A stretch of 64,000 bases of DNA from Sphaerisporangium perillae (GTDB taxonomy: Bacteria > Actinomycetota > Actinomycetes > Streptosporangiales > Streptosporangiaceae). Each line of letters starts with the position of its first letter. The first letter of the stretch is position 1. Shown piece after piece: positions 44,656 through 62,174 of this stretch. A program made the translations under genes and the position numbers. The notes below the pieces were generated by a model that ran no database searches, was not told where the DNA came from, and saw only the letters and a program-made list of their open reading frames with translations. Location: NCBI RefSeq assembly GCF_023276435.1, contig NZ_JALLPO010000025.1, positions 62,001-126,000 on the forward strand, given 5' to 3'.

Positions 44656-44758
44656 TGCGGTGCCGCTGCCCGTCCTAGGGGCGGACGCGCGCGCGGGTGA
44701 GCATCGACAGGCTGAGAAAGTGGTCTCCGGGCAAGCGGCGAGCGGGCGGGGACCTCGG

Positions 44759-45709: not shown

Positions 45710-45812
45710 CTCGCTCCCTGTGCTCGTCGTGCTGGTTTCCGGATACGACCCGCCCGTCTCATCGGCGGCCCCGTGACCGCGGCGGTGCCGGTACCACCGG
45801 GGCGGACGCCGC

Positions 45813-46706
45813 TCACCGGCGTGCCGTGGCGAAGGCGGCGGCGATGCCGCAGGCCAGGGTCAGGGCCGCCACGGCCGCGTGCCGCCACATGGAGGGCAGG
45901 TCACGGGTGGTGACCTTGGGCGCCGGGGGCAGCCCGTACACCTCGGGCTCGTCGAGGAGCAGGAAGAACGCGCCGTTGCCGCGGACGCCGTCGGCCGGGT
46001 CGTGCCCGTAGAGCCGGGCGTCGGCCACGCCGTCCTGGCGCAGCTCCTGAAGGCGGGCCGCCGCCCGCTGGAGCAGCTCGTCCACCGGTCCGTACTGGAT
46101 GGACTCGGTGGGGCAGGCCTTGGCGCAGGCAGGCGTGAGGCCATCGACCTGCCGGTCGTAGCAGAGCGTGCACTTGAAGACGCGGCCGTCCTCCTCGCGC
46201 TTGTCGATCACTCCGTACGGGCAGGCCGACACGCAGTAGCCGCAGCCGTTGCAGATGTCCTGTTGCACCACCACCGTGCCGAACTCGGTGCGGAAGAGCG
46301 AGCCGGTGGGGCAGACGTCCAGGCAGGCGGCGTCGGTGCAGTGCTTGCACACGTCGGAGGCCATCAGCCAGCGCAGGTCGCCCGAGCCCTGATCGCCCGA
46401 GCCCTGGCCCTGGTCGCCGGCGCCGTCGGGCGCCTTGACCGGCTTGCGCTGCTCGATGAAGGCGACGTGCCGCCAGGTGGATCCGGACAGCTGCTCGGTG
46501 TTGTCGAAGGACATGCCGGTGAGCTCGAACGGCGCGTCGGACGGGAGCAGGTTCCACTCCTTGCACGCCACCTCGCACGCCTTGCATCCGATGCAGACCG
46601 AGGTGTCGGTGAAGAAGCCCATCCGTGGCGGATGCTCCGGGTAGCCGGTCTCCTCCTGGACCTGCGGCAGCCTGGTCGCCACCGGTATGGATCGCGCCGC
46701 CGTCAT
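45813..46706 (-). CDS. Formate dehydrogenase iron-sulfur subunit
   Basis: 297 residues from ATG 46706, GGAGG 6 bases upstream. Four ferredoxin clusters are visible: CIGCKACEVACKEW, CKHCTDAACLDVCPTGSL, CNGCGYCVSACPYGVI, and CTLCYDRQ...CAKACPTESI. The C-terminus has one membrane helix (AAVAALTLACGIAAAFA). Receives electrons from the molybdenum subunit and hands them to the NrfD-type subunit. The ribosome-site region is duplicated upstream (see mini-ORF). Confidence 0.9.
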   Translation of the reverse strand: MTAARSIPVATRLPQVQEETGYPEHPPRMGFFTDTSVCIGCKACEVACKEWNLLPSDAPFELTGMSFDNTEQLSGSTWRHVAFIEQRKPVKAPDGAGDQGQGSGDQGSGDLRWLMASDVCKHCTDAACLDVCPTGSLFRTEFGTVVVQQDICNGCGYCVSACPYGVIDKREEDGRVFKCTLCYDRQVDGLTPACAKACPTESIQYGPVDELLQRAAARLQELRQDGVADARLYGHDPADGVRGNGAFFLLLDEPEVYGLPPAPKVTTRDLPSMWRHAAVAALTLACGIAAAFATARR

Positions 46707-46759
46707 CTCGGGCCTCCTGCCGCCGCGCGGGCTCCGCACGTGCGCGTCACCGCCGTCAT
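46703..46759 (-). CDS. 18-residue mini-ORF made by a duplicated start region
   Basis: CAGGAGGCCCGAGATGACGG occurs twice on the minus strand, 53 bases apart, each with a ribosome site and ATG. The upstream copy (ATG at 46759) opens an 18-codon frame whose TGA overlaps the real ATG at 46706. This puts a coupled mini-ORF before the iron-sulfur gene. Whether it is translated is untested. Confidence 0.35.
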   Translation of the reverse strand: MTAVTRTCGARAAAGGPR

Positions 46760-46801
46760 CTCGGGCCTCCTGCTGGTACGGGCTCGCCGGTGACCGTCAT
46801 C

Positions 46802-49800
46802 TCAACGGCCATGGTGTGCGGGCTGGTCGATGCCGGCGCGGCGGCGGAAGGTCTCCACCAGGAGCTGCAGGCCGGGCCCTCGGGGGCGCCGCCCCGGCTG
46901 GATGTCCGCGGTGGTCACCTTGGTCTCCTGGATGTCGGCGTTCGGGTCGAGCACGATGGACGTCAGCTCGTTCGCCGGGTCCCCGGTGACGACGCCGTTC
47001 GGCCCCCAGTGGTACGGCAGGCCGATCTGGTGGACGACGCGGCCGTCCATGTGGAGCGTCGGCATCCGGTCGGTCACCAGGACGCGGGCCTCGATCGCGC
47101 CCCGCGCGCTGATGATCGTGGCCCAGCCGCCGTGCTCCAGCAGGCGCTCCTCGGCGAGTTCGGGCGACACCTCGCAGAACATCTCCGGCTGCAGTTCGGA
47201 CAAGTGCGGCAACCAGCGGCTCATGCCTCCGGCGGTGAAGTGCTCGGTGAGCCGATAGGTGGTCACCACGTACGGATAGACCTCGCTGCCGGCCGGGTGG
47301 TAGCGGTTGCCGGGACGGTCGTAGGTGATCCGGGCCGGGTTGCTGCGCTGCGCGGGGTACAGCAGGTTCTCGGCCGGGGTGTCCTGCGGCTCGTAGTGCA
47401 CGGGCAACGGGCCGTCCATGAGCCCGGCCGGGGCGAACAGCCAGCCCTTGCCGTCGCCCTGCATGATGAACGGGTCGATTCCGGACAGCGCGTCGGCGCC
47501 CTTGGCGTCGTCCGGCGGCCGGTAGTGCGGCGGACGGTCCTCGATGAAGTCGGGCACGTCGTGCCCGGTCCACTTGCCCATCCCCTCGTCCCACCAGACG
47601 TACGCCTTGCGCGGGCTCCACGGGTTGCCATCCGGGTCGGCCGACGCGCGGTTGTACAGGGTGCGCCGGTTGAGCGGCCACGCCCAGGCCCATTCGCGGG
47701 ACGTCCAGCTCTGCTCGGTGTGCGGCTTGCGGCGTGCCGCCTGGTTCACCCCGTCCGCGTACACCCCGCAGTAGATCCAGCAGCCGCAGCTGGTGGAGCC
47801 GTCGTCGCGCAGTTCGGCGTAGGCCGACAGGAGCCCCCCGTCGGGGCCGTACCCGTTGATCTCGCGCAGCACGGCGTCCGCGCTGGGCTCGGCGATGTCG
47901 CCCTCCACCGGGTAGTCCCAGGTCAGGTCGAGGACGGGCCGGTCGGCAGGGTCGGTGGACGCCCCCAGCCGCTCCCTGATGAGCCGGCCGAGATGGTAGA
48001 CGAACCACAGGTCGCTGCGGCGGTCGCCGCTGGGCTGCACGGCGGCGTCGTGCCACTGGATGAGGCGGTTGGTGTTGGTGAACGTGCCGTCCTTCTCGGT
48101 GTGCGCGGCGGCGGGGAAGAAGAAGACCTCGGTGGCGATCCGGTCGGTGCTCAGCTCGCCGTTCTGGATCTCCTGGCCGTCCTTCCACCAGGTCGCCGAC
48201 TCGATGAGCGAGAAGTCCCGCACCACGAGCCAGTCGAGGTTGGCCATGCCGAGCCGCTGCAACCGGGTGTTGGCCGATCCGACCGCGGGGTTCTGGCCGA
48301 ACAGGAAGTAGCCCTTGCAGGTGCCGTCGAGCTGGGCCATCGTCGTGTCGTAGGTGCTGTGCGAGCCGGTCAGCCGGGGCAGGTGGCCGAAGCAGAAGTC
48401 GTTGCCGGGCGTCGCCGCGTCCCCGTAGTAGGCCTTGAGCAGGCTGACCACGTAGTTGCGCGCGTCGGCCCAGAAGCCCTTCTGGGTGCTGATGACGTCG
48501 ACGAAGGTGTCCAGGTCCTCGTCGGAGTGCGCGAACGGCATGGGGATGTAGCCGGGCAGCAGGTTGTACAGGGTCGGGATGTCGCTCGACCCCTGGATGC
48601 TGGCGTGGCCGCGCAGCGCCATGATGCCGCCGCCCGGCCGCCCGATGTTGCCGAGCAGCATCTGCAGGATGCTCGCCGCCCGGATGTACTGCGTCCCGAC
48701 CGTGTGCTGCGTCCACCCCACCGCGTACGCGAAGGCGCTCGTGCGGTCGCGCCCGGAGTTCGAGGTCAGCGCGTCGCACACCCGCCTGAACAGCTCCGGC
48801 GGGATCCCGCACGTCTGATGCACGAACTCGGGGGTGTAGCGGGCGAAATGCCGCTTGAGGATCTGGTAGACGCACCTGGGGTCGGTGAGCGTCTCGTCCC
48901 GCTGCGGGTGCGCGTTGACGGGGGCGCCGCCGGAGCCGTGCGCCTCGCTGCGGCCGGGCATGTGGTACTCGGCCAGCCGCAGCCGCCGTCCCGACGCCGC
49001 CTGCACCCCCGGCCCCTTGTACTGCCAGGTGCCGACGTCGTACATGCGCCTGTCCGGGTCCCAGCCGGAGAAGACGCCGCCCAGGTCCTCGGTGTCGGCG
49101 TAGTCGTCGGTGATGATGCTCGCGGCGTTGGTGTAGTTCATGACGTACTCACGGAAGTCCTTCCCCTCCGTCAGGACGTGGTTGATGATCGCCCCGAGGA
49201 AGGCGATGTCGGTGCCCGGGCGGATCGGCACGTACAGGTCGGCCAGCGCGCTCGTACGGCTGAAGCGCGGGTCGACGTGGATGATCGTGGCGCCGCGCAG
49301 CTTGGCCTCCATCACCCATTGGAAGCCCACCGGGTGCGCCTCGGCGAAGTTGGAGCCCTCGATGATGATGCAGTCGGAGAACTGCAGGTCCTGCATGAAC
49401 GCCGTGGAGCCGCCCCTGCCGAAGGACGTGCCGAGGCCGGTCACCGTGGAGCTGTGGCAGACCCGCGCCTGGTTCTCCACCTGGACGACGCCGAGCCCGG
49501 TCATCAGCTTCTTGATGAGGTAGTTCTCCTCGTTGTCCAGCGTGGCGCCGCCGAGGCTCGCGATGCCCAGCGTCCTTGCCACCCGCCTGCCGTCGCAGTA
49601 CTCCTGCCAGGTCTCCCGCCGCGTGCTGACCACCCGGTCGGCGACCATGGCCATCGCCGTGTCCAGGTCGAGCTGCTCCCACTCCGTGCCGTACGGCCGG
49701 CGGTACAGCACCACGTGCTCGCGGCTGCGGCCGGTCGTGAGCTGGAGGGACGCCGCACCCTTGGGGCAGAGCCTGCCCCGGTTGATCGGAGAGTCGGGGT

Positions 49801-50023
49801 CTCCCTCGATCTGCACGACCCTCTCGCCGGAGACGTAGACGTCCTGGGCGCAGCCGACGGCGCAGTAGGGGCAGACCGACTTCACCACGCGGTCGGCGGT
49901 GGCCGCCCGGGACCGCAACGCGTCGGTGCCGGGCGACCTTACCGCCGCTCCGAGCCCGCAGCGGTCAGGACCGGTGAGCTGCCGCAGCACCGGCCATCTC
50001 CCCAGGAACCCGCTCATCCCCAT
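46802..50023 (-). CDS. Formate dehydrogenase catalytic subunit (Mo/W-bisMGD, Cys type)
   Basis: 1073 residues from ATG 50023. Oxidises formate to CO2. N-terminal [4Fe-4S] site C51, C54, C58 and C86 followed by the conserved Lys in CPKG; the active-site residue is Cys189 in ARVCHSSTVTGLGTSFGRGG, where selenocysteine occurs in the E. coli enzymes, with the essential His next to it. The C-terminal molybdopterin domain is complete (LPYHWGPNGVVTGDPANELTSIVLDP). An open frame to 50158 upstream lies largely in repeat DNA and was not used. No Tat signal is visible, so it is probably cytoplasmic. No fdhD or fdhE is seen nearby. Confidence 0.9.
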   Translation of the reverse strand: MGMSGFLGRWPVLRQLTGPDRCGLGAAVRSPGTDALRSRAATADRVVKSVCPYCAVGCAQDVYVSGERVVQIEGDPDSPINRGRLCPKGAASLQLTTGRSREHVVLYRRPYGTEWEQLDLDTAMAMVADRVVSTRRETWQEYCDGRRVARTLGIASLGGATLDNEENYLIKKLMTGLGVVQVENQARVCHSSTVTGLGTSFGRGGSTAFMQDLQFSDCIIIEGSNFAEAHPVGFQWVMEAKLRGATIIHVDPRFSRTSALADLYVPIRPGTDIAFLGAIINHVLTEGKDFREYVMNYTNAASIITDDYADTEDLGGVFSGWDPDRRMYDVGTWQYKGPGVQAASGRRLRLAEYHMPGRSEAHGSGGAPVNAHPQRDETLTDPRCVYQILKRHFARYTPEFVHQTCGIPPELFRRVCDALTSNSGRDRTSAFAYAVGWTQHTVGTQYIRAASILQMLLGNIGRPGGGIMALRGHASIQGSSDIPTLYNLLPGYIPMPFAHSDEDLDTFVDVISTQKGFWADARNYVVSLLKAYYGDAATPGNDFCFGHLPRLTGSHSTYDTTMAQLDGTCKGYFLFGQNPAVGSANTRLQRLGMANLDWLVVRDFSLIESATWWKDGQEIQNGELSTDRIATEVFFFPAAAHTEKDGTFTNTNRLIQWHDAAVQPSGDRRSDLWFVYHLGRLIRERLGASTDPADRPVLDLTWDYPVEGDIAEPSADAVLREINGYGPDGGLLSAYAELRDDGSTSCGCWIYCGVYADGVNQAARRKPHTEQSWTSREWAWAWPLNRRTLYNRASADPDGNPWSPRKAYVWWDEGMGKWTGHDVPDFIEDRPPHYRPPDDAKGADALSGIDPFIMQGDGKGWLFAPAGLMDGPLPVHYEPQDTPAENLLYPAQRSNPARITYDRPGNRYHPAGSEVYPYVVTTYRLTEHFTAGGMSRWLPHLSELQPEMFCEVSPELAEERLLEHGGWATIISARGAIEARVLVTDRMPTLHMDGRVVHQIGLPYHWGPNGVVTGDPANELTSIVLDPNADIQETKVTTADIQPGRRPRGPGLQLLVETFRRRAGIDQPAHHGR

Positions 50024-50051
50024 ATCGCCCCCCGCCGACTGGTCACCAGGC

Positions 50052-50292
50052 GAACTCACATGCTCGGGGGGCTCATGCGCTTCCTGCCCGTTCCTCCCCC
50101 ACGGGGCGGATTCCCAACCTCCGATCTCCGGGACCGGCCATCGCCAGGCAGCACCCATCAGGCCACGTCCGCCTGATTAGCCCGTCAGACGGCGTCCGCC
50201 AGACGGTGTCCGTCAGGCGGTGTCCGTCAGGCGTGGGCCGTCAGGTGGAGTCGCCGTACGGGCTGCGGCCGGAGGCGACGGCGGACAGCATC
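50052..50292. repeat. Direct repeat, left copy, flanking the insert
   Basis: 241 bp matching 60665-60876 with few substitutions. It holds the last 17 codons (including the stop at 50241-50243) of a PEP-mutase-like gene plus the intergenic region in front of the formate dehydrogenase. It contains four 14-bp units like CGTCAGACGGCGTC (50183-50238), while the right copy has two; this accounts for almost all the length difference. Homology ends abruptly at both edges. Confidence 0.9.
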
Positions 50293-50391
50293 TAGGTCCT
50301 CAACGGACCACCGGTGCAGCATGGAATGGTCGTCGAAGCGAATCCCGCGCTGGGCCGCGAGCCAGTCGCAGAAGTGGTCCAGCCTGCTCAC
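50293..50391 (-). pseudogene. Acyl-/acetoacetyl-CoA synthetase, 5' fragment cut at the insert edge
   Basis: GTG at 50391 overlaps the HAD gene's stop (GTGA), with GAGG upstream. The remaining 33 codons, including DHFCDWLAAQRGI and MLHRWSVEDLDA, match the N-terminal start of acetyl/acetoacetyl-CoA synthetases (usually 600 residues or more). At 50292 the frame runs into the direct repeat and ends at 50227 in unrelated sequence. The rest of the gene is gone. It shows that the operon once ended in an acid-CoA ligase. Confidence 0.7.
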
Positions 50392-51272
50392 GCAACCTCC
50401 CCATCGTTCCGACGCAGACCGGGCCATAGTGCTATCAACTCGTCCAGGCCCGCCACAACGAGGTCAGGGCGGTCACCCTCCGGGGCGCCGACGACGTCCT
50501 CGGCGCGGTGTGTGCCGGTGGTGACCAGCACCGCCACCGCGCCGGCGGCCTTGGCCATGCGGGACTCGAGCGTGAGGTCGTCGCCGACGGTGAGCACTTC
50601 GGACGGCGCGACGCTGAGCCTGCGCGCGGCGATCTCCATCGCGGTGGGAGATGGCTTGCCGAGCACCTCGTAGGAGGTCCCGGTGACGTGCCGGAGCCCG
50701 CTGGCGATGAAACCGCTGAGACCGGCCACTGGCCTGCCTCTTGAGGCGAAGCGGCGGGCGTCACTGGTGACCAGTAGCTCCGCGCCGTCCCACAACGCCT
50801 CCGCCGCCCGCTGCAACCGGTCGCGGGTGAAGGCCGTGTCCCAGCCGATGACCACGGCGGCGACCTGGCCGTCGTGCGAGTGGTCGACCACCTGCACGCC
50901 TTCCTCGATGAGCACGTCGACCAGGCCTGGGCCACCGAACGCGAGCACCAGTTGGTCGCCGAACCGCTTGCGCACCACCTCCGCCGCGACCACCGACGGG
51001 GTCAGTACCTCGGCGACGTTGACGTCGATGCCGAGCCCGCGCAACGTCTCGGAGATCGCGGCAGGAGTCTTACTGGACGCGTTCGTGAAGGCCACCAGTG
51101 ACCGGCCGCTGTGGCGTACAGCGCGCACCAGTTCGACCGCCCCGGGCAGCGCGAATCCGGTGTAGTTGGAGTGCGGGTCGAACAGCGCGAGGCACCCGTC
51201 GATGTCGAAGACGACACCACGCACCGCGGCCAGCCGGCCGGCCAGTTCCTCGGTCACGACCGTGGCCGTCAT
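50388..51272 (-). CDS. HAD-family phosphatase, NagD-like
   Basis: 294 residues; ATG overlaps the previous stop (ATGA). Catalytic motif VFDIDGCLALFD with nucleophile Asp23 and Asp25, motif II FTNASSKTPA, conserved Lys in GKPSPTAMEIA and motif IV VGDDLTLESRMAKAAG. The C2-type cap between motifs fits NagD/phosphoglycolate-type phosphatases. In this operon it may remove phosphate from an intermediate made by the PEP-synthase-like enzyme, or repair a by-product. Confidence 0.88.
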   Translation of the reverse strand: MTATVVTEELAGRLAAVRGVVFDIDGCLALFDPHSNYTGFALPGAVELVRAVRHSGRSLVAFTNASSKTPAAISETLRGLGIDVNVAEVLTPSVVAAEVVRKRFGDQLVLAFGGPGLVDVLIEEGVQVVDHSHDGQVAAVVIGWDTAFTRDRLQRAAEALWDGAELLVTSDARRFASRGRPVAGLSGFIASGLRHVTGTSYEVLGKPSPTAMEIAARRLSVAPSEVLTVGDDLTLESRMAKAAGAVAVLVTTGTHRAEDVVGAPEGDRPDLVVAGLDELIALWPGLRRNDGEVA

Positions 51273-52783
51273 TGCGACTCCGTCCTGCGCGATAGCGTTA
51301 CCGACTCGTCCCCGCGCGTGAGGTGCAGTGAACGCCAGCGCGGCAGCGCGGTCACCGCGTCGAGAAAGTCCATCAGGGACGCGACCGGCTTCGCGGGGCG
51401 CCAGGCGGATGCCGGACCAGCCGCGTCCATGGCGTCGAGCTGATCGCCGGGCAGTACGGACCGCAGCACAACGTCCCCATCGTTCACGTCCCGGCCAAGC
51501 GTGGCGCGCACCTGCTCGCGCAGCTGGTCGATCGACGGTTCCGGGCGCGGCTGGTTCAGTTCGCGGGTACGCGGCGAGGACTCCACGCGCTCGCGGATCT
51601 CGTCGGCGATCGGCGCGACGGGGGTGCCGAAGTGGCCGAGCACATAGCGGATGATCTCGTCCGGCAGGCGGCTCCACCGCTCACCGCCACCTCGGGTGGC
51701 CACCACGTTGAGTACGGCCTGTGTGCCGACGAACTGGCTGTACGGGGTGACCATGATCGGGTAGCCGAGCTCGGCCCGGACCCGGGAGACCTCCTCGAGG
51801 ACCTCGGGGAGTGCCTCGGACATCCTGACCTCGGCTAGTTGCCTGCGCAGGGTGCCCATCATCCCGCCGGGCACCTGGTGGGCGTGGTAGCTCAGGTCGT
51901 ACTCGGTTGGCCGGCCGGGTTCGAGGCCCTGTGTCCGGGCGATCGTCGCGATGATCTCCTCGGCCTGGGCCACCGCGTCGAGATCCACGTCGGTCGCGAT
52001 GCCCACGGTGCCCAGATTCGACACCAGCCGTGTGAGCGAAGGCTGGCTGGTGCCGTTGGCCAGCGCGCCGATCGCGGTGTGCAGCACTTCGACACCGAGC
52101 TGTGCCGCGAGCACGTAGACCTGTGGCGCGACGCCGGTGGTGCAGTGGCTGTGCAGTTCGAGCGTTTTGGCGCCCGCGGCGTCCTTGAGTTCGGGGATCA
52201 GCGTGGCGGTCCGTTCGACCGTCAGCAGCCCGCCGGGGTCCTTGAGGTAGACGGCGTCGACCGCGCCATCGCCGGCGAGCACGGACGCGGCCTTGCGGTA
52301 GATGTCGTCGGTGTGCACAGGGCTTTCGGTGAACGTCACCGCGGCCACGACCTGCTCGACGCCCTCCTCTTTGGCCACGCGCGCCACCGCGAGCGCGGCG
52401 CCCGTGTCGTTCATCGGCTCGGCGATCTGGATGCGGCGCAGCCCGGACTCGGCGAGACACCGCAATGCCAGGCGCATCAGCGCCTCCGGCGAGCGATCCC
52501 ACGACATGAAGCGCATGCCGGTAGTGATCAGCGACAGCGGCGTCTCCGGAACCACCGCGCGCATCCGTCGGATGCGCTCCCACGGGTTCTCCTTGTGCCA
52601 GCGCACACCGACGGACAAGTGCGTCGACGAGGTGAAGTCCAGGGCGTGAAAGCCTGCCCGTTCGAGCGCGGGGCCCAGCGCCTCCACCATGCCTGTGGTC
52701 AGCCCCGTGGCGCCCCAGAGGCTCTGATTGCCGTCGCGAGTACTGGTGTCGACGATGCGGACTCGTCGCTCGGGAGCCTTCAC
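51269..52783 (-). CDS. Biotin-dependent carboxyltransferase, OAD-alpha/5S/PycB type
   Basis: 504 residues; GTG overlaps the previous stop (GTGA). HMGL-like TIM barrel with DTSTRDGNQSL (metal Asp12), Lys181 in YLKDPGGLLT where pyruvate carboxylases have the carbamylated lysine, and His211/His213 in LELHSHCTTG. The C-terminal half has the PYC_OADA signature SQFVGTQAVLNVVATRGGGERW. Residues around the substrate differ from normal pyruvate carboxylase (RDAHQ is RDGNQ, and GRNAVGY is TGMRFMSW), so the acceptor may not be pyruvate. Works with the carrier and carboxylase encoded just upstream. Confidence 0.87.
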   Translation of the reverse strand: MKAPERRVRIVDTSTRDGNQSLWGATGLTTGMVEALGPALERAGFHALDFTSSTHLSVGVRWHKENPWERIRRMRAVVPETPLSLITTGMRFMSWDRSPEALMRLALRCLAESGLRRIQIAEPMNDTGAALAVARVAKEEGVEQVVAAVTFTESPVHTDDIYRKAASVLAGDGAVDAVYLKDPGGLLTVERTATLIPELKDAAGAKTLELHSHCTTGVAPQVYVLAAQLGVEVLHTAIGALANGTSQPSLTRLVSNLGTVGIATDVDLDAVAQAEEIIATIARTQGLEPGRPTEYDLSYHAHQVPGGMMGTLRRQLAEVRMSEALPEVLEEVSRVRAELGYPIMVTPYSQFVGTQAVLNVVATRGGGERWSRLPDEIIRYVLGHFGTPVAPIADEIRERVESSPRTRELNQPRPEPSIDQLREQVRATLGRDVNDGDVVLRSVLPGDQLDAMDAAGPASAWRPAKPVASLMDFLDAVTALPRWRSLHLTRGDESVTLSRRTESQ

Positions 52784-54168
52784 GCGGCGTGCCCCTTCGA
52801 TACGGTGCCGGAAGCCGAGGCCGGCGGCCAGACCGTGTCCAGCCAGCGCGTCTCCACGGCTGAGGCGCGGAAATCGGGATGCGCGAGGACGAACTCGTGC
52901 AACGGCGCGGTGGTAGTGACCCCGTTGATCTCGGTGGCGCGGACCGCGGCCAGCATCGCGTCGATCGCTTCGACACGGTTGCGTGCGCGGACGATCACTT
53001 TTCCCAGAAGGCTGTCGTAATAGGGCGGGAGGAGATAGCCCTCGTAGACGTGGCTTTCGATCCGAATCCCCGGCCCGCGTGGGAACGTCACCCGTGTGAT
53101 GCGGCCCGGCGCGGGCCGGAAGCCCGCGTATGGGTCCTCGGCGTTGAGCCGGCACTCGAGCACGTGCACCGCCGGTTCGGGAGGGTCATCAGGCAGCCCG
53201 TGCGGCTCCCCGAGCGCCAGGCGCAGCTGCGCGGCGACCAGGTCCACGCCGTAGGCCTCCTCGGTCACCGGGTGCTCGACCTGGATCCTGGCGTTCATCT
53301 CGAGGAAGACGATGGTCTGCGGGTCCGCTGTGGACTCGGTGTCGAGCACGAACTCGACGGTGCCCGCGCCGCGGTAGCGCAACTGCTCGACCAGGCGCGC
53401 CGCGCTCGTGCGCAGCAGGTCGCGCGTGGCGAGGCTCAGGCCCGGCGCCGGGCACTCCTCGATCAGCTTCTGATGCCGGCGCTGTACGGAACAGTCACGC
53501 TCCCCGAGCACGGCGACCCCGCCCTCGCCATCGCCGAAGACCTGCACCTCGACATGGCGCGCCGCGGCATAGAAGCGTTCCAGGTACAGCGCCCCGTTGC
53601 CGAAACCGGCCTGCGCCTCCGCCGCGGCGACGGGAAGCACCTTGACCAGCTCCGACTCGTCGCGCACGAGCGTGATGCCCCGGCCGCCACCGCCGTGAAC
53701 GGCCTTGACCAGCAAGGGGAATCCAATCTCGCGGGCAGCGCGAACGGCGGAGGTCTCATCCAACACCACCGCGCCCGGCGCCACCGGAACCCCCGCCTTC
53801 TCCGCCACGGCCCGTGCGGAGGCCTTGTCCCCCACTGCGCGCAGCGAGTCCGGCCGTGGGCCTACGAACGCGATGCCGTTGTCTTCGCAGGCCTCCGCGA
53901 GGGCAGGCTGCTCGCTGAGAAAGCCGTAGCCGGGGTGGAGCAGGGTCGCGCCCGTGGCGAGCGCGGCCTCGACCATGAGCTCTGCCCGCAAGTAGGACGA
54001 TGGTGCGGGCGCAGGGCCGACGCATATGGCGCGGTCGGCCAACTGGGCGGCAAGCGAGTCACGGTCGGCATCGCTCACCGCGACCACCGGCGTGAGCCCG
54101 AGCCTGCGGCACGCCGCCACGACGCGGACGGCGATCTCGCCACGATTGGCGATCAGCACCGCGGTCAC
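52780..54168 (-). CDS. Biotin carboxylase subunit
   Basis: 462 residues, GTG overlapping the carrier's stop. Carboxylates biotin with ATP and bicarbonate. Landmarks: LIANRGEIAVRVVAACRRLG, LLHPGYGFLSEQPALAEAC, ATP-grasp glycine loop VKAVHGGGGRGI, ERDCSVQRRHQKLIEECPAP, and FLEMNARIQVEHPVTEEAYGVDLV with catalytic Glu/Asn/Arg. Stand-alone subunit without carrier or transferase domains, so this enzyme is of the split type. Confidence 0.94.
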   Translation of the reverse strand: MTAVLIANRGEIAVRVVAACRRLGLTPVVAVSDADRDSLAAQLADRAICVGPAPAPSSYLRAELMVEAALATGATLLHPGYGFLSEQPALAEACEDNGIAFVGPRPDSLRAVGDKASARAVAEKAGVPVAPGAVVLDETSAVRAAREIGFPLLVKAVHGGGGRGITLVRDESELVKVLPVAAAEAQAGFGNGALYLERFYAAARHVEVQVFGDGEGGVAVLGERDCSVQRRHQKLIEECPAPGLSLATRDLLRTSAARLVEQLRYRGAGTVEFVLDTESTADPQTIVFLEMNARIQVEHPVTEEAYGVDLVAAQLRLALGEPHGLPDDPPEPAVHVLECRLNAEDPYAGFRPAPGRITRVTFPRGPGIRIESHVYEGYLLPPYYDSLLGKVIVRARNRVEAIDAMLAAVRATEINGVTTTAPLHEFVLAHPDFRASAVETRWLDTVWPPASASGTVSKGHAA

Positions 54169-54743
54169 CGCGTCACCTCGTCCGGTGCCACGTCCGGTGC
54201 CACGCGGAAGAGCACCTGGCCGAACTCCACCAGATCGCCGTCGGAGGCCACGACCTCGACGACACGACCGGAGGTATTGGCGCTGACAGGATTCATCAAC
54301 TTCATCACCTCCACAATCGCGACCGTGGTGTCGGCGGCGACCGTGCTGCCGACCTCCACGAAGGGCTCGACGTCCGGCGACGGCTTGCTGTAGAAGGTGC
54401 CCAGTATGGGCGCGGTGATCTCCACAAGGTCCGATGAGAGCGTTGCGGAGTGTGGTCGCGGTGTGGCGGTGGCCGTGGGTTCCGGCGCATCGGTGGGTAC
54501 TGGTGCGGCCGCAGGTGCTGGTGCCGCTGTGGGTACTGGCGGCTCCGCGGAGGCCCGCGGGCGCGCCGCGGGAGCTTGTTCGGTGAAGGCGTCCGGTGTG
54601 GTCGACATTCTCAGCCGGAAGCCGGGCATCTGAAGGTCCACGTCGGCGAAGGTCCCGGCGTCGAGCTTCGCGACGAGCTCGGCGATTTCCGCCCACGTGG
54701 GCAGGTCCTGCTCCGGGGAGGAGGTCGGGTTGGCGGCGGCCAT
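54165..54743 (-). CDS. Biotin carboxyl carrier protein
   Basis: 192 residues. Start ATG 54743 lies one base after the stop of the upstream gene. N-terminal helix (about 14-32), a long Ala/Pro/Thr linker (about 50-105) typical of carriers, and the biotinyl domain with the lysine at 148 in VEVMKLMNP. The TAPILGTFYSKPSPDVEPFVEVG segment with thumb-like residues is of the AccB type. Biotin must be added by a ligase encoded elsewhere. Confidence 0.93.
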   Translation of the reverse strand: MAAANPTSSPEQDLPTWAEIAELVAKLDAGTFADVDLQMPGFRLRMSTTPDAFTEQAPAARPRASAEPPVPTAAPAPAAAPVPTDAPEPTATATPRPHSATLSSDLVEITAPILGTFYSKPSPDVEPFVEVGSTVAADTTVAIVEVMKLMNPVSANTSGRVVEVVASDGDLVEFGQVLFRVAPDVAPDEVTR

Positions 54744-54744
54744 G

Positions 54745-55851
54745 TCATCGGCCTCCGTGTCGCTTGGCAGCGGCGTGGATGAGTGAGAGGTACCCGGCCT
54801 GCGGTGTCATCGCCCTGGCCTCCGCCTGCCGTTGCTTCCAGGTGGTCTCCGGCCTGCTTTGCAGCAACACGAACCGCGGCTCGCCGTCGACGTGTGTCAT
54901 CGCCCATTCGATGTCCTGCGGGCAGCCATAGTGCCGCTCCACCCGGATTGCCATTTCCGCGAGCTGGAGGACACTCGCGTCGTCGAGGCACGGCACGTCA
55001 CGCCGATCGACGGGCACGTCCTCGGTGGTCGTGCCACGGCCGGACGGATCCGGCACACAGCGATGCGCCTTGTGCGCCACCGTCGTCCTGGTCACTTCGA
55101 GGCCCACTTTGGACACCCAGAACTCGTCCGGGGTGACTTCGCCGGACACGACGGCGTGTCCCAGTCCCCAGCTGGCGTTGATCGCAACGACCGAGCGATC
55201 TCCGGTGCGAGGGCTCACGGTGAACGCGACCCCGGCGACCTCGGCGTCGACCATCGCTTGCACTGCCACCGAGATGCGCAGCGCCTCGCTCGCCTGATCC
55301 TCGGGTAGAGACGTGCGATAGGCGATGGCCTGCGGCGTGTAAAGGCTGGCCCAGCATTCCTTGACGTGCTCGAGCACGCTGTCCGCACCGACCACCCATA
55401 AGAACGTCTCCTGCTGGCCCGCGAAGCTCGCGGCGTCGCCGTCCTCAGCCACCGCCGAGGAACGAACGGCCACCGGCAGATCCTCCACGCCGAACCGTGC
55501 GCACAGTTCGTGGTAGCCCGCGCGGATCTCCGCCGCCATGGCGGCGGGCATCGCGGTGCGGCGCACCAATGTTGTCGCCTCATCTTGCGCGCGGGCCAAC
55601 GACGAAACACTGCCTGGTTCCGCGCCGAGCACCAGCGCCGTCAGCTTGTCGCCAAGTCCGTCCACGGCCCGGAAGGTTTCGAAAGCAGACACGGTGACGG
55701 CGAAACCGTCGGGCACCTCGACACCGGCGTGAACCAACTCGCCCAGGCCGGCGCACTTGCCGCCGACGGTCGGGCGGTCGGTAATCAGTAGGTCGGCGAA
55801 CCAGCGAGTGACGGGTGCGGACACGAAGGTCTCCTCGAGCGAAACTGTCAT
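54745..55851 (-). CDS. PEP-synthase N-terminal (ATP-binding) half, PpsB-like
   Basis: 368 residues, about 40 kDa; ATG overlaps the previous stop (ATGA). Only the ATP-grasp part of PEP synthase is present: GGKCAGLGELVHAGVEVPDGFAVT, VAVRSSAVAEDGDAASFAGQQETFLWV, INASWGLGHAVVSGEVTPDEFWV and DIEWAMTHVDGEPRFVLLQSRPETTW. In phenylphosphate synthase a 40-kDa subunit of exactly this type works with a 70-kDa subunit similar to the C-terminal half, as encoded next door. It would autophosphorylate the partner's histidine with ATP. Confidence 0.87.
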   Translation of the reverse strand: MTVSLEETFVSAPVTRWFADLLITDRPTVGGKCAGLGELVHAGVEVPDGFAVTVSAFETFRAVDGLGDKLTALVLGAEPGSVSSLARAQDEATTLVRRTAMPAAMAAEIRAGYHELCARFGVEDLPVAVRSSAVAEDGDAASFAGQQETFLWVVGADSVLEHVKECWASLYTPQAIAYRTSLPEDQASEALRISVAVQAMVDAEVAGVAFTVSPRTGDRSVVAINASWGLGHAVVSGEVTPDEFWVSKVGLEVTRTTVAHKAHRCVPDPSGRGTTTEDVPVDRRDVPCLDDASVLQLAEMAIRVERHYGCPQDIEWAMTHVDGEPRFVLLQSRPETTWKQRQAEARAMTPQAGYLSLIHAAAKRHGGR

Positions 55852-57728
55852 GCGGGGGTGTCCTGCAGAATTGTCACCGTGCCGTTGTTCCCATCAACGC
55901 GGATCCGTTGACCGGTGGTGATCGAGGTCGTGGCGGTGCCGGTTCCGACGACGGCGGGCAGCCCGTACTCGCGAGAGACGATCGAGGCATGGCACATGAT
56001 GCCGCCGATATCGCTGACCGCGCCTTTGATCCGCGCGAACACCGGTGTCCAGCTCGTACTGGTGATCGGAGCGACGAGGATTTCGCCCTCCTGGAGACTG
56101 TCCAGCTCATCAGGGCTGAGCACCACCCGAGCCGGCCCCTCGGCGACGCCGGGCGAGCCCGCGAAGCCGCTCAGCACCTTGGCGCCGTCACCGTGCTCCT
56201 GAGCGGCCAGCCACTTCTCGACCTGCTCGTCGGTGATACCCCAGAGCATGATCATCATCGGCTCGACAATGCCCTTGGGCGCGGGGCCCAGCGCAGGCGG
56301 CGGAGTCCAGCGACGTAGTGCCTCGTGGATGCGCCTGCGCTCGGCGACGATCGGCGGCCAGTGGTCGGGACCGAGCGGTTCACCGCCGCCGCACCACGCC
56401 ATCTGCAGGTCGGCGATCGCGTCGGCGATCTCGGAACGGCGCAGGAAGAACAGGTCGTCCACTGCGGGGAAGAACCCGAAACGCGCCAACAGGCTGCCGA
56501 GTTCACGCATCTTGTTCCAGAACACCGTCATGTACCAGTGCTCAATGAAGAAGTTGTGGTTCTCCACGTAGGGGAAGACCACCCGAGACAGGCCCAGGGC
56601 ATCGTCGAAGGCGCGCTGATCGTCGGGATCGGTGATCAATGCGCGGTAGCGTTCGATCGTCTCGTCCCGTTCGGCGGACACCTTTTCCAGCGGGCGGGAC
56701 AGGTCCTCGCCCTCACGCAGCCGCTCGGCGTACTCTCCGATCATCCGCATCGGGAAGGTGGGATTGTCCGACCAGCTACGGTGGTGGTGGTAGAAGCCGT
56801 TGCCGTAGGAGAAGTGGAACCACGGCTCGGCCGACTTGGTGTACTCGGCCAGCCAGGTCCGGCCCGCCCCGGTCATGCCGAGCCGCTCGAAAGTCTGCTC
56901 GGCGGGGGCGTCGGCCCTGAGGATGTCGGCGACCCCGAGTTCGATCGCACGGGCAGCGAGCTTCTTCAGCTCATCGTCAGGGCGGAACAGCAGCACCTCG
57001 ACGCCGCTGACCATCTTCGCGACGGTCTGGTCGCTGATCTCCGGGAAGTGTTTCTTGCAGAGCGTGAGGAAGTTCAGGTACGCCGCGTAGCCCATGTTGA
57101 GCAGTTCGGCGTGCAGGTTCCACGCCGCATCGACCGAGGCGAGGATACGTTGGTAGGCCACCAGAAGATCGTTCGACGACGTGACTCCCCGTCCGTTGAG
57201 GACCCGGTCGACGGGCTCGAACTCGCCGAGCGCGGGAATCTCGACGGCCTCCAGCGCGGCGATCTGTTCGCGGACCTTGGTCTCCCACTTCGCGTAGAGC
57301 TCCGGCCAGTTCTGGTAATAGTGGCCGGCGCGGATGGCGAACTCCTCGGCCCGCCGTGCCATCTCTTCCGGATCTTCCACGCTGTTGGCGCTCATGTACA
57401 TGTAGCCGTTGAGCACACGGACGTCCAGGCCGAGCGCTGGCGGCAGCGCGAAGACGCGAGAGTTCATGACGCCGGTACTCATGAATGCGCTGTCGGAGGT
57501 GACGATGTCGAACGGGGGCATCGGCTCGGGAAAGTGCATCCCGTTGCGAAACCAGGTACGCCGCGAGTCCTTATCTCTGCGGCTGGGCAGGAAACGGTTG
57601 TAGTACGGGTAGAGCTGCTCCCAGTCCTCCGCGCCCTCGGGCGCGGCGATCGAGTACGGGTCTGGGAACCCCTTGCGGGAGGACGGTTCTGGCTCGGCCG
57701 CCACCGGGATGATCGCTTCAGTTGTCAT
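55848..57728 (-). CDS. PEP-synthase C-terminal-type subunit with phosphohistidine, PpsA-like
   Basis: 626 residues, about 70 kDa, from ATG 57728 with GAGGAG 7 bases upstream. Residues 1-520 are a large, unusual substrate domain; the C-terminal swivel domain carries the phosphorylated His580 in GGIMCHASIVSREYGLPAVVG. Size and layout correspond to the large subunit of phenylphosphate synthase rather than to a PEP synthase. It should take phosphate from His580 onto an enol or phenol oxygen of the substrate. First gene of the operon, divergent from the IclR gene. Confidence 0.84.
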   Translation of the reverse strand: MTTEAIIPVAAEPEPSSRKGFPDPYSIAAPEGAEDWEQLYPYYNRFLPSRRDKDSRRTWFRNGMHFPEPMPPFDIVTSDSAFMSTGVMNSRVFALPPALGLDVRVLNGYMYMSANSVEDPEEMARRAEEFAIRAGHYYQNWPELYAKWETKVREQIAALEAVEIPALGEFEPVDRVLNGRGVTSSNDLLVAYQRILASVDAAWNLHAELLNMGYAAYLNFLTLCKKHFPEISDQTVAKMVSGVEVLLFRPDDELKKLAARAIELGVADILRADAPAEQTFERLGMTGAGRTWLAEYTKSAEPWFHFSYGNGFYHHHRSWSDNPTFPMRMIGEYAERLREGEDLSRPLEKVSAERDETIERYRALITDPDDQRAFDDALGLSRVVFPYVENHNFFIEHWYMTVFWNKMRELGSLLARFGFFPAVDDLFFLRRSEIADAIADLQMAWCGGGEPLGPDHWPPIVAERRRIHEALRRWTPPPALGPAPKGIVEPMMIMLWGITDEQVEKWLAAQEHGDGAKVLSGFAGSPGVAEGPARVVLSPDELDSLQEGEILVAPITSTSWTPVFARIKGAVSDIGGIMCHASIVSREYGLPAVVGTGTATTSITTGQRIRVDGNNGTVTILQDTPA

Positions 57729-58216
57729 GGCTTCACTCCTCGTCGAGCTTTCAATGAAACGATCACCCGGCGGCACAGGCCGCCGCTGATCATCAGGATC
57801 CGGCCGAAGACGATGCGGACCCTGCCCAGCGGGTGCCGGTGGTGGCGCGGGTGGCCAACCGAACGCATGGGCACCTCGGGGTTGCGGCAGGCGATGAATG
57901 CGGTCTCGCCGGCGCCCCCACATCGTCCTGTCGGGCCTGTGATTGCACGACCAGGGAGCAGTGGCGAAGGGGCGGATCGGCGTCGTGGCGTGTCACCCGC
58001 CTCATCCTGCGGCGACTGGCTACCGAGGTCTTCGCCGAGTGCTCGACCATGCCCACTGGCAGCCCACCCGGCCGGATGGCGGGCGATGATCGTGGGCGTG
58101 GTGCGCCGCCCTGGAGCACCACCACGTCGTACCGATCGACCACGTCATTCTTCCGTTCCTGGAACATGCTTAGTAGGTGATATGGTGCGCGCCGTCACGA
58201 CCTAAGTCAGTCGCGC
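57729..58216. promoter_or_regulatory. Divergent control region of the carboxylase operon
   Basis: 488 bases with no convincing gene. TTTCAATGAAA (57749-57759) is a perfect 11-bp palindrome 21 bases upstream of the PpsA-like start and shares the TTTC...GAAA ends of the IclR palindrome near 58217, so it may be a second, weaker operator. Confidence 0.4.
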
Positions 58217-58246
58217 TTTCCATCCGATGGAAAACGCGGCTATGAT
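58217..58246. promoter_or_regulatory. IclR operator and leaderless promoter
   Basis: Perfect palindrome TTTCCATCCGATGGAAA (58217-58233), the form expected for IclR sites, followed by TATGAT (58241-58246), exactly 6 bases before the ATG. The palindrome covers the -35 position, so the regulator probably represses itself. Confidence 0.7.
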
Positions 58247-58252
58247 CCCGTC

Positions 58253-59038
58253 ATGGCCGGTGCTTCGCACCGCACTCCGGGGCAGCCCGTAACCACACGG
58301 ACACTGTCCGCCCTGGACGCGTTCGACGGCGGTGACCGTGTGCTCTCGTTGTCCCAGATCGCCCGCCGCACGGGACTGCCCGTCGCGACCGCACACCGCA
58401 TGCTTGGGCAACTGTGCGCCGCCCGACTGCTGGCCAAACGACACGACGGCCTCTACGAGATCGGCGCGCGGATGTGGCGGCTCGGGCTGCTCGCCAGGCC
58501 TACAACACTGCGCGAGGCCGCGCTACCACACCTTCACGATCTGGTGATCCGCACCGGCCACACGGTGCACCTCGCTGTGCTGGACGGCTTCGACGCGTTA
58601 GTGATCGACCGCCTCGCCGGGTCACGGACACTGCCGACGCGCCACAGCCCTGGCGGTCGCCTGCCACTGCACTGCACGGCCGTGGGCAAAGTGCTCCTCG
58701 CCCATGCTCCGGCGTCCGTGCAGGAACGCGTGCTGACGTCGCTGCAGCGCCACACTCCGTACACGATTACCGACCGCCGTCAGATCGAGCGCCAGATGGC
58801 AGGCGTGCACCGCACGAACGTCGCGCGCAGTGCTCAGGAGCACCGAGAAGGCACGTCGTCGGTGGCCATGCCCGTCAGCGGGACGACCGGCGTTATCGCG
58901 GCTGTCGGTGTCATCGCGCCACTGACCAGCCACCGGTTCACTGACGTGCTCACCCCGCTCTCCGCGGCGGCGGCGGCCGTCAGTGCGAGCGCGCGCGACG
59001 CCGACTTTGAATCTGCCGCGGAACCGGAGCGGGACTGA
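58253..59038 (+). CDS. IclR-family transcriptional regulator
   Basis: 261 residues. N-terminal winged helix (LSLSQIARRTGLPVATAHRMLGQLCAARLLA) and C-terminal GAF-like effector domain with GHTVHLAVLDGFDALVIDRLAG, LPLHCTAVGKVLLAHAP and the later EGTSSVAMPVSG. Divergent from the carboxylase operon, with a perfect palindrome in its promoter; a local repressor or activator responding to the operon substrate is the natural role. Confidence 0.92.
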   Translation: MAGASHRTPGQPVTTRTLSALDAFDGGDRVLSLSQIARRTGLPVATAHRMLGQLCAARLLAKRHDGLYEIGARMWRLGLLARPTTLREAALPHLHDLVIRTGHTVHLAVLDGFDALVIDRLAGSRTLPTRHSPGGRLPLHCTAVGKVLLAHAPASVQERVLTSLQRHTPYTITDRRQIERQMAGVHRTNVARSAQEHREGTSSVAMPVSGTTGVIAAVGVIAPLTSHRFTDVLTPLSAAAAAVSASARDADFESAAEPERD

Positions 59039-59142
59039 GACGGCATTCAGCCCTGTGGCCTCGCCTCCATGGCTCCAGGTGATCGCCTCAGACTGCGGGC
59101 ACTGGCCGGGAGCGGTCGGCACCGCGAGGACGGTAGCGGACC

Positions 59143-59180
59143 GGGCGGGAGAGGACGCCCGCAGGCGCCCTCTCCCGCCC
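59143..59180. terminator. Bidirectional terminator between iclR-type gene and hydrolase
   Basis: A 12-bp perfect outer stem (GGGCGGGAGAGG / CCTCTCCCGCCC) with inner CGCC/GGCG pairing and a CGCA loop, between two convergent genes. Confidence 0.8.
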
Positions 59181-59188
59181 AGGTGCGA

Positions 59189-60184
59189 CTAACTCCTGCG
59201 CCAGTCGCGCGGCCAGTTCCTGGACTTCGTCGACCAATACTGGTTGTCGCAGAACCCGCAGGGGTTGTCGAGCAGATAGTCCGCGGCGTGGGAGTCGCCG
59301 CCGAGCGTCAGATCGAGCCAGGCGGTGCCGATGTCGGCGACTTCCTCTTCGAACGCGGTCGAGCGCCAGAAGCCGACGTGGCCGGCGTACAAGTGCTCGG
59401 CCTGGAACGCCGGGACCTCGAACCGCATCGCCCAGTCCGACTGGAAGCCCGGGTAGGCGACGTCACTCGTGCCGCCCATGATCCACGCGACCGGCACCTT
59501 GAGGCCGAGCAGCGCGGCGCGTCGGGGCTGCGACAGCCCCGCCGCCGCAGAGCTTGAGGTGTTGTAGCCGAGGACGGTGCGGAAGCGGGAATCCCGCGCC
59601 GCCGCGGCGATCGCGGTGACTCCGCCGCAGGAATATCCCGCGGACGCGATCGACGACAGATCGAGCTTGCCGTAGTACGGCCCCTGTGGGTTCGAATCCG
59701 CCTCCTGCGCCCAGTCGACCGCCGACTTCATCAGGCCGACGGCGGTGTCGATGATGGTGTCGAACCCGGTCGGCTCCGCATCGGTCTTCCCGGCGGGGGC
59801 CGGCGGCTCGAGCGGCGGGTCCGGGTCGAGGAGCGGCGACGTCGCGGGGAGCGGGAGCAGCGTGTCCTCGTACACCGGTGGGTTGGTGACCGGGCCTTTC
59901 GCTATCACGAAGTAGCCCGCCGACGCGAGCCGCGTCAGGAACGGTTCGTAGATCCGGTTGCTGTTCGCGCACGCGCCGTTCTCCCACACGACGACCGGCA
60001 GCCGGTTCGCGTTTCGTAACTCGGCCGGGCGGTAGATCGTGTGCGTGGGCAGCGTGGCGTCACCTTCGCGAACGACGCTGACGCGGTCGTGATGGTCGTC
60101 GGCCATGGCGCTGGTCGGACCGGCTGCCGCCGCGACAACGAGCACCATGGCGGCTAACGCGATGTACTTCCTCACTCTGGTCAT
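59189..60184 (-). CDS. Secreted alpha/beta hydrolase
   Basis: 331 residues. Signal peptide (RKYIALAAMVLVVAAAAGPTSAMA, cleavage after about residue 28). Nucleophile Ser in AGYSCGGVTAIAAAA (G-x-S-x-G), acid in WIMGGTSDVAYPGF and His in LYAGHVGFW. The oxyanion region VVVWENGACAN is like dienelactone hydrolase/cutinase-type enzymes. Two Cys pairs (ACAN and CGFC, SCGG) could form disulfides. Could release esters that feed the carboxylase pathway. AAGGAG lies just before ATG. Substrate unknown. Confidence 0.8.
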   Translation of the reverse strand: MTRVRKYIALAAMVLVVAAAAGPTSAMADDHHDRVSVVREGDATLPTHTIYRPAELRNANRLPVVVWENGACANSNRIYEPFLTRLASAGYFVIAKGPVTNPPVYEDTLLPLPATSPLLDPDPPLEPPAPAGKTDAEPTGFDTIIDTAVGLMKSAVDWAQEADSNPQGPYYGKLDLSSIASAGYSCGGVTAIAAAARDSRFRTVLGYNTSSSAAAGLSQPRRAALLGLKVPVAWIMGGTSDVAYPGFQSDWAMRFEVPAFQAEHLYAGHVGFWRSTAFEEEVADIGTAWLDLTLGGDSHAADYLLDNPCGFCDNQYWSTKSRNWPRDWRRS

Positions 60185-60413
60185 TTCTCCTTACGACTTA
60201 TCGAGTGTTTAGTGGCTCTACGCGCTTGATCGGAGAGCCGGGCTCGGGTACCAAGCGGCGATCACGGAGTGACAGCTGAGATGTAGGCCGACCCCTGGAT
60301 ATGCGAAGCCCGCAGCTCTTGTGGATCATGTCTGTTGTCTAGACAGTCGATCTTCAAGAAACCACGGGCGTGCACGACTTTATAGAGAACGCGGACGCGA
60401 CACTGCTGCTGGC

Positions 60414-60664
60414 TTAGAACTCCCAACAAAGTTGGAGGTTGACCAGCCGGCGCCAGCAGATGATGCCGCAGGCGAGGCTGAGGAAGGCTTCGTGGATGTC
60501 GTCGCGGACTTCCCAGCGGATGCGTAGTCGTCGGAACCAGTGCAGTAGTGCGAAGCTCTGCTCGACGACCCATCGGTGCACGCCCAGGCCGGAGCCGTGT
60601 TCGGTACCGCGGCGAGCGATGATCGGGGTGATCCCGGCTGCTCGGACTTGCTTGCGGTACTTGA
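60414..60664 (-). pseudogene. IS5-family transposase, 3' fragment
   Basis: Minus-strand frame IARRGTEHGSGLGVHRWVVEQSFALLH, then WFRRLRIRWEVRDDIHEAFLSLACG, is the conserved C-terminal block of IS5-type DDE transposases. The stop is at 60414-60416. Its upstream part is missing: similarity stops exactly where the right direct repeat begins (60665). Region 60185-60413 may hold more IS debris, including TGTCTAGACA, but nothing else is recognised. Confidence 0.8.
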
Positions 60665-60876
60665 GAACTCACATGCTCGGGGGGCTCATGCGCTTCCTGC
60701 CCGTTCCTCCCCCACGGGGCGGATTCCCAACCTCCGAACCCCGGACCGGCCATCGCCAGGCAGCACCCATCAGGCCACGTCCGCCTGATCAGCCCGTCAG
60801 ACGGCGTCCGTCAGGCGTGGGCCATCAGGTGGAGTCGCCGTACGGGCTGCGGCCGGAGGCGATGGCGGACAGCATC
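60665..60876. repeat. Direct repeat, right copy, flanking the insert
   Basis: 212 bp matching 50052-50292. It covers the last 17 codons of the PEP-mutase-like gene and its downstream region. It carries two of the 14-bp units (60795-60822) where the left copy has four. Near its left end, on the minus strand, GGTTGGGAATCC and a following CCCC-GTG-GGGG hairpin resemble the 3' ends of IS200/IS605-type elements. Confidence 0.9.
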
Positions 60877-61622
60877 GTGGCGAGGTACCTCTGGGTGGCG
60901 GCGTGCAGGCCGTGCCCGAAGCTGACCCGAGCCACGCCCAGGGCGGCCAGATCCGCGAGCGAGGGCGCGCCGGGGCGGAACAGCACGTTGACCGGGCCGC
61001 CGATCTCCGCGATTAGCGCCCTGATGACCTCCGGCTCGGTCAGCATGATCGGGTAGACGCAGTCGGCCCCGGCCCGCAGGTAGAGGCGACCGCGCCGGAC
61101 CGTGTCGGCGAGCCGCTCCGAGGTCGTCCCGTCGCCCCGGGCGTAGGTGTCGATCCGCGCGTTGATCACCAGGTCGACGCCCGCGTTCTCCGCGGCCGCC
61201 CGTACGGCCGCCAGGAAGTCGGCCTGCTCCGCCGGGTCGATCATCGTGCCGGTGCGCGGGTCGGAGTCCTCCAGGTTGAGGCCGGCGGCACCGGTCTCGG
61301 CGAGCCGCTCGACGAGCTCCGCCGGCGCGAGGCCATACCCTCGCTCCAGGTCGGCGGTGACCGGGACCGGTACGGCGCGCGCGATGCGGGCCACCGCGTC
61401 CAGCATCACGCCGGCCGGGGCGCTCTCCCCGTCGGCGTACCCGAGGGCAGGGGCGACCGCGGCGCTGCCGGTGGCGACGACCGGGAACCCTGCCTCCACC
61501 ACGGCACGCGCGGACGCGGCGTCCCACACGTTCGGCAGCACCAGCGGCCTGCCCGGCACGTGCAGCGCCCGCAGTTCGGCCCCCTTGGACGGAGAGGGCG
61601 CGGGTGCCTTCGTCCCGTCCAC
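60825..61622 (-). CDS. PEP mutase/isocitrate lyase-like protein
   Basis: 265 residues from GTG 61622. Small member of the isocitrate lyase/PEP mutase superfamily: LRALHVPGRPLVLPNVWDAASARAV, PVTADLERGYG (metal Asp), AAGLNLEDSDPRTG and DLVINARIDTYARG. The KKCGH-type lyase motif is absent, so C-C lyase or phosphonomutase activity is only inferred. The 3' end is inside the direct repeat. Only 4 bases separate it from the AhpD-like gene. Confidence 0.85.
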   Translation of the reverse strand: MDGTKAPAPSPSKGAELRALHVPGRPLVLPNVWDAASARAVVEAGFPVVATGSAAVAPALGYADGESAPAGVMLDAVARIARAVPVPVTADLERGYGLAPAELVERLAETGAAGLNLEDSDPRTGTMIDPAEQADFLAAVRAAAENAGVDLVINARIDTYARGDGTTSERLADTVRRGRLYLRAGADCVYPIMLTEPEVIRALIAEIGGPVNVLFRPGAPSLADLAALGVARVSFGHGLHAATQRYLATMLSAIASGRSPYGDST

Positions 61623-61626
61623 CGGA

Positions 61627-62136: not shown

Positions 62137-62174
62137 GCTAGGGGCAGAGTGGACCGAGGATAAGATCCAGTCTC

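Follow-up and report, generated by a model that had tools for sequence, protein, structure and literature searches.

In Rhodococcus rhodochrous GD02, the hydroxyphenylethanone (Hpe) operon hpeHICBADEF encodes a lignin-breakdown pathway published in 2022 (PMC9618137; here and below, our statements draw on parts of each cited paper). HpeHI phosphorylates 4-hydroxyacetophenone and acetovanillone, HpeCBA carboxylates the resulting phospho-ketones but not detectably the free ketones, HpeD takes the phosphate off the carboxylated product ahead of coenzyme A (CoA) activation, and HpeE and HpeF are proposed to form and then cleave the CoA thioester (PMC9618137). The same paper names a complete syntenous cluster in Actinomadura macra NBRC 14102, and four further genomes in all. 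The kinase mechanism and the structure of HpeI (9GOJ) are described in PMC12167813, where HpeHI is reported to accept several phenols and the residue ahead of the catalytic His is given as Cys in HpeH and as Ser in CreH and PpsA. The first six genes of GD02, Sphingobium SYK-6, and A. macra each let Rhodococcus convert hydroxyacetophenones to beta-keto acids; the A. macra genes were tested in Rhodococcus cells on 4-hydroxyacetophenone and acetovanillone, and both were converted (PMC13101465). Here we examine a probable Hpe operon with a truncated hpeE in a 64,000-nucleotide stretch of Sphaerisporangium perillae (NZ_JALLPO010000025.1, positions 62,001 to 126,000), which we call the window.

Other described systems share parts of this design. 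The Acv pathway of SYK-6 (acvABCDEF) has the same six-gene kinase/carboxylase/phosphatase operon (PMC9618137, PMC13101465). The acv operon lacks the genes for the last two enzymes, which are encoded elsewhere (PMC9618137), and the same may be true of the strain studied here. SYK-6 differs in that the non-homologous VceA/VceB carry out the last steps, as known from the descriptions in PMC9618137 and PMC13101465 rather than from sequence comparison. The MarK-initiated pathway of Novosphingobium aromaticivorans (Hall et al. 2025, per PMC13101465) is called very similar but has a single-component kinase in place of H and I; the breadth of such clusters is also partly known, since 52/836 cases are given by Hall et al. 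as cited there. PpsAB (phenylphosphate synthase) and CreHI (cresol kinase) are likewise two-component phenol dikinases, with ∼45% pairwise identity (PMC12167813). PpsAB/CreHI-type homologs among our compared loci (L numbers) differ in having Ser before the His; in place of biotin enzymes, their neighbors are genes for phenylphosphate carboxylase (L089) or a P450 (L088, L090). Beside the window kinase lie biotin enzymes and, unlike in L089, no phenylphosphate carboxylase (ppc) genes.

The window contains six intact, tightly packed minus-strand genes (50388-57728) and the start of a seventh. An original prediction, made from the sequence alone, had assigned the six to families and the seventh to the start of a ligase; our profile matches agree. 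It had also held that no described pathway has this set, a claim that falls, as hpeHICBAD(EF) of GD02 matches in order and families (PMC9618137). Placing the genes in the Hpe family removes the claimed unknown pathway and gives direct substrate clues. Shared with the GD02 and A. macra operons are the order of the first six genes, the 4-base overlaps, the subunit sizes, the catalytic residues examined, and the upstream regulator genes. The window differs in that hpeE is truncated and hpeF is absent locally, so that any HpeE and HpeF would be encoded elsewhere, and in that the hpe genes are inserted between a phosphoenolpyruvate (PEP)-mutase-family gene and fdhA.

The first gene (57728-55848) encodes an HpeH-like protein of 626 amino acids and 70.1 kDa, the putative substrate-binding/swivel (phosphohistidine) subunit of a two-component phenol dikinase. 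It carries a PEP-utilizers mobile domain, matches NF006153 at 794.8 bits (cut-off, 578; the model is titled hypothetical protein), and contains the motif SDIGGIMCH, which fits T/SXXGGXXXH and places Met and Cys ahead of His580. The hpeI-like gene (55851-54745) encodes the ATP-grasp subunit (368 amino acids, 39.4 kDa; PPDK_N, 348 bits), and the hpeC-like gene (54743-54165) encodes a biotin carboxyl carrier protein of 192 amino acids (Biotin_lipoyl, PF00364) with Lys148 in an MKLM motif; this biotinyl Lys is kept in 35/35 aligned rows. The positions of His580 and Lys148 had been predicted correctly. Next is the predicted biotin carboxylase subunit of a phosphophenylethanone carboxylase (54168-52780; 462 amino acids, 48.9 kDa; PF00289/PF02786/PF02785), which is 67 to 75% identical to those of L039 to L042. 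The carboxyltransferase subunit (52783-51269; 504 amino acids from a GTG; PYC_OADA, PF02436) contains an RDxxQ motif, Lys181, His211, and His213; counted from the GTG, these last three stand as predicted, and the Asp of RDxxQ is Asp17 rather than Asp12. The hpeD-like gene (51272-50388) encodes a HAD-IIA-type phosphatase (294 amino acids; Hydrolase_6/Hydrolase_like) that holds the same place after the carboxyltransferase in relatives. The predicted ATGA/GTGA overlaps and 1-base gap were confirmed, the junctions from H onward being ATGA, a 1-base gap, GTGA, GTGA, ATGA, and GTGA. A divergent IclR-family gene (58253-59038, plus strand; IclR_C/HTH_IclR), possibly the operon's regulator, lies upstream of H; an IclR gene is found upstream of H on the opposite strand in L039, L040, and L042 to L049 too, in some of them with intervening genes. 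As a side observation on naming, Table 1 of PMC9618137 assigns the carboxyltransferase to HpeB and the biotin carboxylase to HpeA. These labels may be swapped, because the masses given in the text (HpeA, 57.4 kDa; HpeB, 49.3 kDa) and the order of the genes in relatives (L043, L049, L086) better fit HpeA as carboxyltransferase and HpeB as biotin carboxylase.

The seventh gene begins with a GTG at 50391 and encodes the N terminus of an acetoacetyl-CoA-synthetase-like ligase; in L039, L040, and L042 a ligase gene likewise follows D. We regard it as a truncated hpeE (50391-50227, minus strand), since after ∼33 ligase codons (50391-50293) the frame enters repeat DNA and stops at 50227. From position 50292 downward, the DNA duplicates the 3′ end of the neighboring PEP-mutase-family gene. 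This copy, with intergenic DNA, forms the left member (50052-50292, 241 bp by local alignment) of a direct repeat whose right member (60665-60876, 212 bp) overlaps the intact PEP-mutase-family gene (60825-61622) at its 3′ end. Between the repeats lies a 10,372-bp segment (50293-60664) that had no blastn match in seven congener stretches; besides the hpe genes, it contains the IclR gene and one hydrolase-like gene. The PEP-mutase gene was found at an E value of ≤1e-60 in 7/10 congeners, and fdhA directly follows it in four of these seven stretches, with no fdhA within 19 kb in the other three. None of the 10 congeners had an HpeH homolog at an E value of ≤1e-60. Third-position GC content is 0.81 to 0.875 in the hpe genes and 0.957 in fdhA. 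Taken together, the repeats, the fdhA junction of the congeners, the absence of the segment and of HpeH from them, and the third-position GC content fit a horizontal gain of the segment with one end inside hpeE. The usual target duplication of a transposon is far shorter than 212 to 241 bp. A genome search with the repeat returned this pair and one weak 47-base match among the 40 of 113 candidates scored. A transposase remnant suspected by eye near 60415-60660 gave no Pfam match for either open reading frame (ORF) tried and was left unnamed. The hydrolase-like gene (59189-60184, minus strand) has an N terminus that by eye resembles a signal peptide and a short match to PAF-acetylhydrolase-type hydrolases.

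To place the operon among its relatives, we compared 50 distinct loci with an HpeH homolog, the window included; this sample is not random. Searching genome contigs for close relatives yielded 27 loci, one of which (L049) is A. macra NBRC 14102. An order-level search found an HpeH homolog (E value of ≤1e-60) in 27/345 genomes, the window's included; its hits covered 31 places, and we extended 18 of these, each on a different genome. Ten plasmid records contained most of HpeH, and five of them were used. L092, a repeat of the A. macra locus with an identical HpeF, was dropped. Carboxylase genes adjoin the kinase in 35/50 loci, more often than chance would give; this is a wider occurrence than the four further genomes named in the consulted parts of PMC9618137. 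The original prediction had proposed looking for the same gene order with a full CoA ligase, and an HpeE homolog (limit, 1e-6) is present in the retrieved DNA of 29 of these 35 loci. In four of the other six (L041, L057, L065, and L107), the contig runs out close to where the gene would be expected; L101 has none in the retrieved DNA, and the window has the fragment. The complete order, H-I-C-biotin carboxylase-carboxyltransferase-D-E-F, is annotated through the amidohydrolase on a Rhizobium leguminosarum plasmid. The 15 loci without carboxylase genes include the phenylphosphate carboxylase (L089) and P450 (L088, L090) contexts as well as short contigs (L050, L051).

A tree of 49 HpeH rows (L065, which is too short, and L092 excluded; GD02 itself is not among the rows) places the window in a five-row clade with Blastococcus, a Frankia metagenome-assembled genome (MAG), Virgisporangium, and Nocardioides (support, 100/99); a node with 100/100 support unites this clade with one of 20 rows that includes A. 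macra and Rhodococcus. On this tree, adjacency of carboxylase genes takes two changes, with L101 and L102, which belong to the same family as the window, placed apart; the well-supported branches force only one change, so a single origin remains compatible with the data. These two loci have the order C-biotin carboxylase-carboxyltransferase-D-H-I rather than H-I-C-biotin carboxylase-carboxyltransferase-D, their HpeH falls outside the main clade, and their association of kinase and carboxylase is possibly independent. The best PDB match of the window HpeI is HpeI itself (9GOJ, 426.6 bits; next, 244.6 bits). Of 50 rows, 31 (the window, L039 to L065, L086, L091, and L101) have Cys immediately before the catalytic His, 18 have Ser, and 1 has Ala.

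We consider it very likely (probability, roughly 0.9) that these genes, as judged from their sequence, are an Hpe operon encoding kinase H-I, carrier, biotin carboxylase, carboxyltransferase, and phosphatase that was gained horizontally and cut within hpeE. From the gene content, order, and residues observed, we infer all activities, the substrate, and the supply of enzymes in trans, as follows. By homology, HpeI would bind ATP and phosphorylate His580 of HpeH, which would hand the phosphate to the phenol hydroxyl of a 4-hydroxyacetophenone. The biotin carboxylase and carrier would use bicarbonate and ATP to make carboxybiotin, the carboxyltransferase would place CO2 on the acetyl methyl group of the phospho-ketone to give a 4-phosphophenyl beta-keto acid, and the HAD phosphatase would strip the phosphate. 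Formation and cleavage of a CoA thioester would then yield 4-hydroxybenzoate or vanillate plus acetyl-CoA. These CoA steps could not come from the local ligase, because its gene is truncated; a ligase encoded at C55:100154-102118 and an amidohydrolase encoded on C45, 89% identical to A. macra HpeF, may supply them. PobA and protocatechuate dioxygenase would pass 4-hydroxybenzoate to the beta-ketoadipate pathway; PobA in this genome scores 539.0 bits, barely over its cut-off of 538.7, and PcaH scores 361.2 bits (cut-off, 296.4).

The predicted logic, in which a split phenylphosphate-synthase-like dikinase phosphorylates a phenol that is then carboxylated through biotin to a beta-keto acid and activated with CoA, is that of the published Hpe pathway. 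A route encoded in full in the window as far as the CoA thioester finds no support, because the ligase gene is cut there. Acetone or a simple enol, offered as the substrate, finds no support, the characterized carboxylase having no detectable action on unphosphorylated ketones in the consulted parts of PMC9618137. The test substrates suggested earlier included acetophenone and phenol; those described are 4-hydroxyacetophenone and acetovanillone (PMC9618137).

Several observations weigh against the Hpe assignment or parts of it. A complete hpeE and hpeF are missing locally. Ser precedes the His in 10/35 carboxylase-adjacent rows (L087, L093, L094, L097, L102 to L104, and L106 to L108), all outside the window's 25-row clade, so Cys is a feature of the window's region of the tree rather than of all hpe clusters. 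The window HpeH, in a clade apart from the tested ones, is 62% identical to that of A. macra. The C55 ligase groups (100/99) with, and resembles, HpeE of L040, L042, and L102, not the A. macra/Rhodococcus type, and the HpeEs of hpe clusters do not form one clade; the 14 E genes that come after D need five changes. For these reasons, the role given to the C55 ligase is a guess. It does stand apart from a separate type (100/100) that holds the C43 ligase and is common to 7/9 congener rows. Finally, kin of the C45 HpeF homolog occur in 6/10 congeners, which lack HpeH, so this protein has another role too and is not hpe-specific.

As to the ligases themselves, the tree puts the Blastococcus E with Microbacteriaceae E and the A. 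macra/Rhodococcus E on another branch; support at its deepest forks is weak (79/69), and some of the long branches come together. Hpe-cluster ligases fall in several branches (L039, L045 to L047, L087, L097, L102, and others) although HpeH is more coherent, as if the CoA ligase of hpe clusters had been recruited more than once.

Because the window clade is separate from the tested clades, the substrate could differ, and we regard the same enzymology acting on another phenolic aryl ketone (e.g., one with a longer side chain or other ring substituents) as a minor but real possibility. The separate five-row clade and the HpeH divergence from A. macra speak for it, as do the SDR and flavin adenine dinucleotide (FAD)-oxidoreductase genes that lie upstream of the hpe genes of L039 and L040, the two clusters checked for these. 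On the other side, the few active-site columns examined are identical in both clades, and HpeHI already takes several phenols (PMC12167813). A bolder and rather unlikely proposal is that the whole window clade represents a second Hpe lineage on a different phenolic aryl ketone and that, in this strain, the truncated operon works with an unlinked HpeE-type ligase and HpeF. The distinct clade and the cut operon, whose E and F candidates are unlinked, would offer a natural experiment on which hpe genes the pathway requires.

We think it unlikely that the operon is a nonfunctional remnant, decaying since the insertion cut hpeE. The truncation itself and the absence of hpeF from the window stretch searched (44001-64000) are what one would expect of a remnant, but the six upstream ORFs are intact, their catalytic residues are conserved, the overlapping junctions have been kept, and candidates for HpeE and HpeF are encoded elsewhere in the genome. 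Still less probable is an assembly artifact, in which the true ligase gene continues elsewhere and was misjoined at the repeat. The break does fall at the end of the 241-bp repeat; against this, the junction lies inside a contig, and the outer flanks retain the fdhA-PEP mutase order of the congeners. A genome search with the Blastococcus HpeE (four matches at an E value of ≤1e-20) revealed no recognizable displaced 3′ part of hpeE, and its two best matches are whole ligases with their own N termini.

The carboxyltransferase bears on the last alternative. It belongs to the same family as pyruvate carboxylase subunit B, OadA, and transcarboxylase 5S and shares their metal-site residues, which are kept in 35/35 carboxyltransferases; Arg17, Asp18, Gln21, Lys182, His212, and His214 are invariant across these 35 (alignment numbering, one more than the count from the GTG). 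The column that is Arg in three solved pyruvate-carboxylase-type chains, which we take to be the pyruvate-binding residue, is Thr in 33/35 (Thr88 in the window, from the GTG) and Ser in 2/35. The pyruvate to PEP/oxaloacetate module that the original prediction had offered as its alternative (a split PEP synthase with a pyruvate-carboxylase-type biotin enzyme) is rejected as having a negligible chance, since, for all that I resembles the N-terminal half of PEP synthase (NF005057, 332.7 bits, below the cut-off of 598) and the carboxyltransferase scores 296.6 bits against pyruvate carboxylase subunit B (below the cut-off of 402), the Arg column is Thr or Ser throughout, the closest solved structure to I is HpeI, the likeness of H to PEP synthase lies mainly in its last ∼110 residues (from residue 408 in one model), and phosphatase, ligase, and amidohydrolase neighbors do not suit such a module.

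Some of the compared loci depart from the common arrangement. In L059 to L061 and L064 (three Chloroflexi MAGs and one Actinomycetes MAG), a D-like gene lies upstream of H-I, with no biotin carboxylase genes in the retrieved DNA. L053 to L057, L062, L063, and L065, mostly from Microbacteriaceae, have H, C, biotin carboxylase, carboxyltransferase, and D, with no hpeI in the retrieved DNA. An I-like protein, 41 to 44% identical to that of the window, is encoded elsewhere in the six hpeI-less genomes searched (L053 to L056, L062, and L063). The I-like loci L125, L128, and L131 have a P450-like gene (Pfam confirmed in L125 only), I, and a second H-like gene, and L130 has a P450-like gene and then ends within I; L131 comes from the genome of L052, which holds its own hpeI as well. 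In these hpeI-less clusters, two kinases may share the ATP-grasp subunit.

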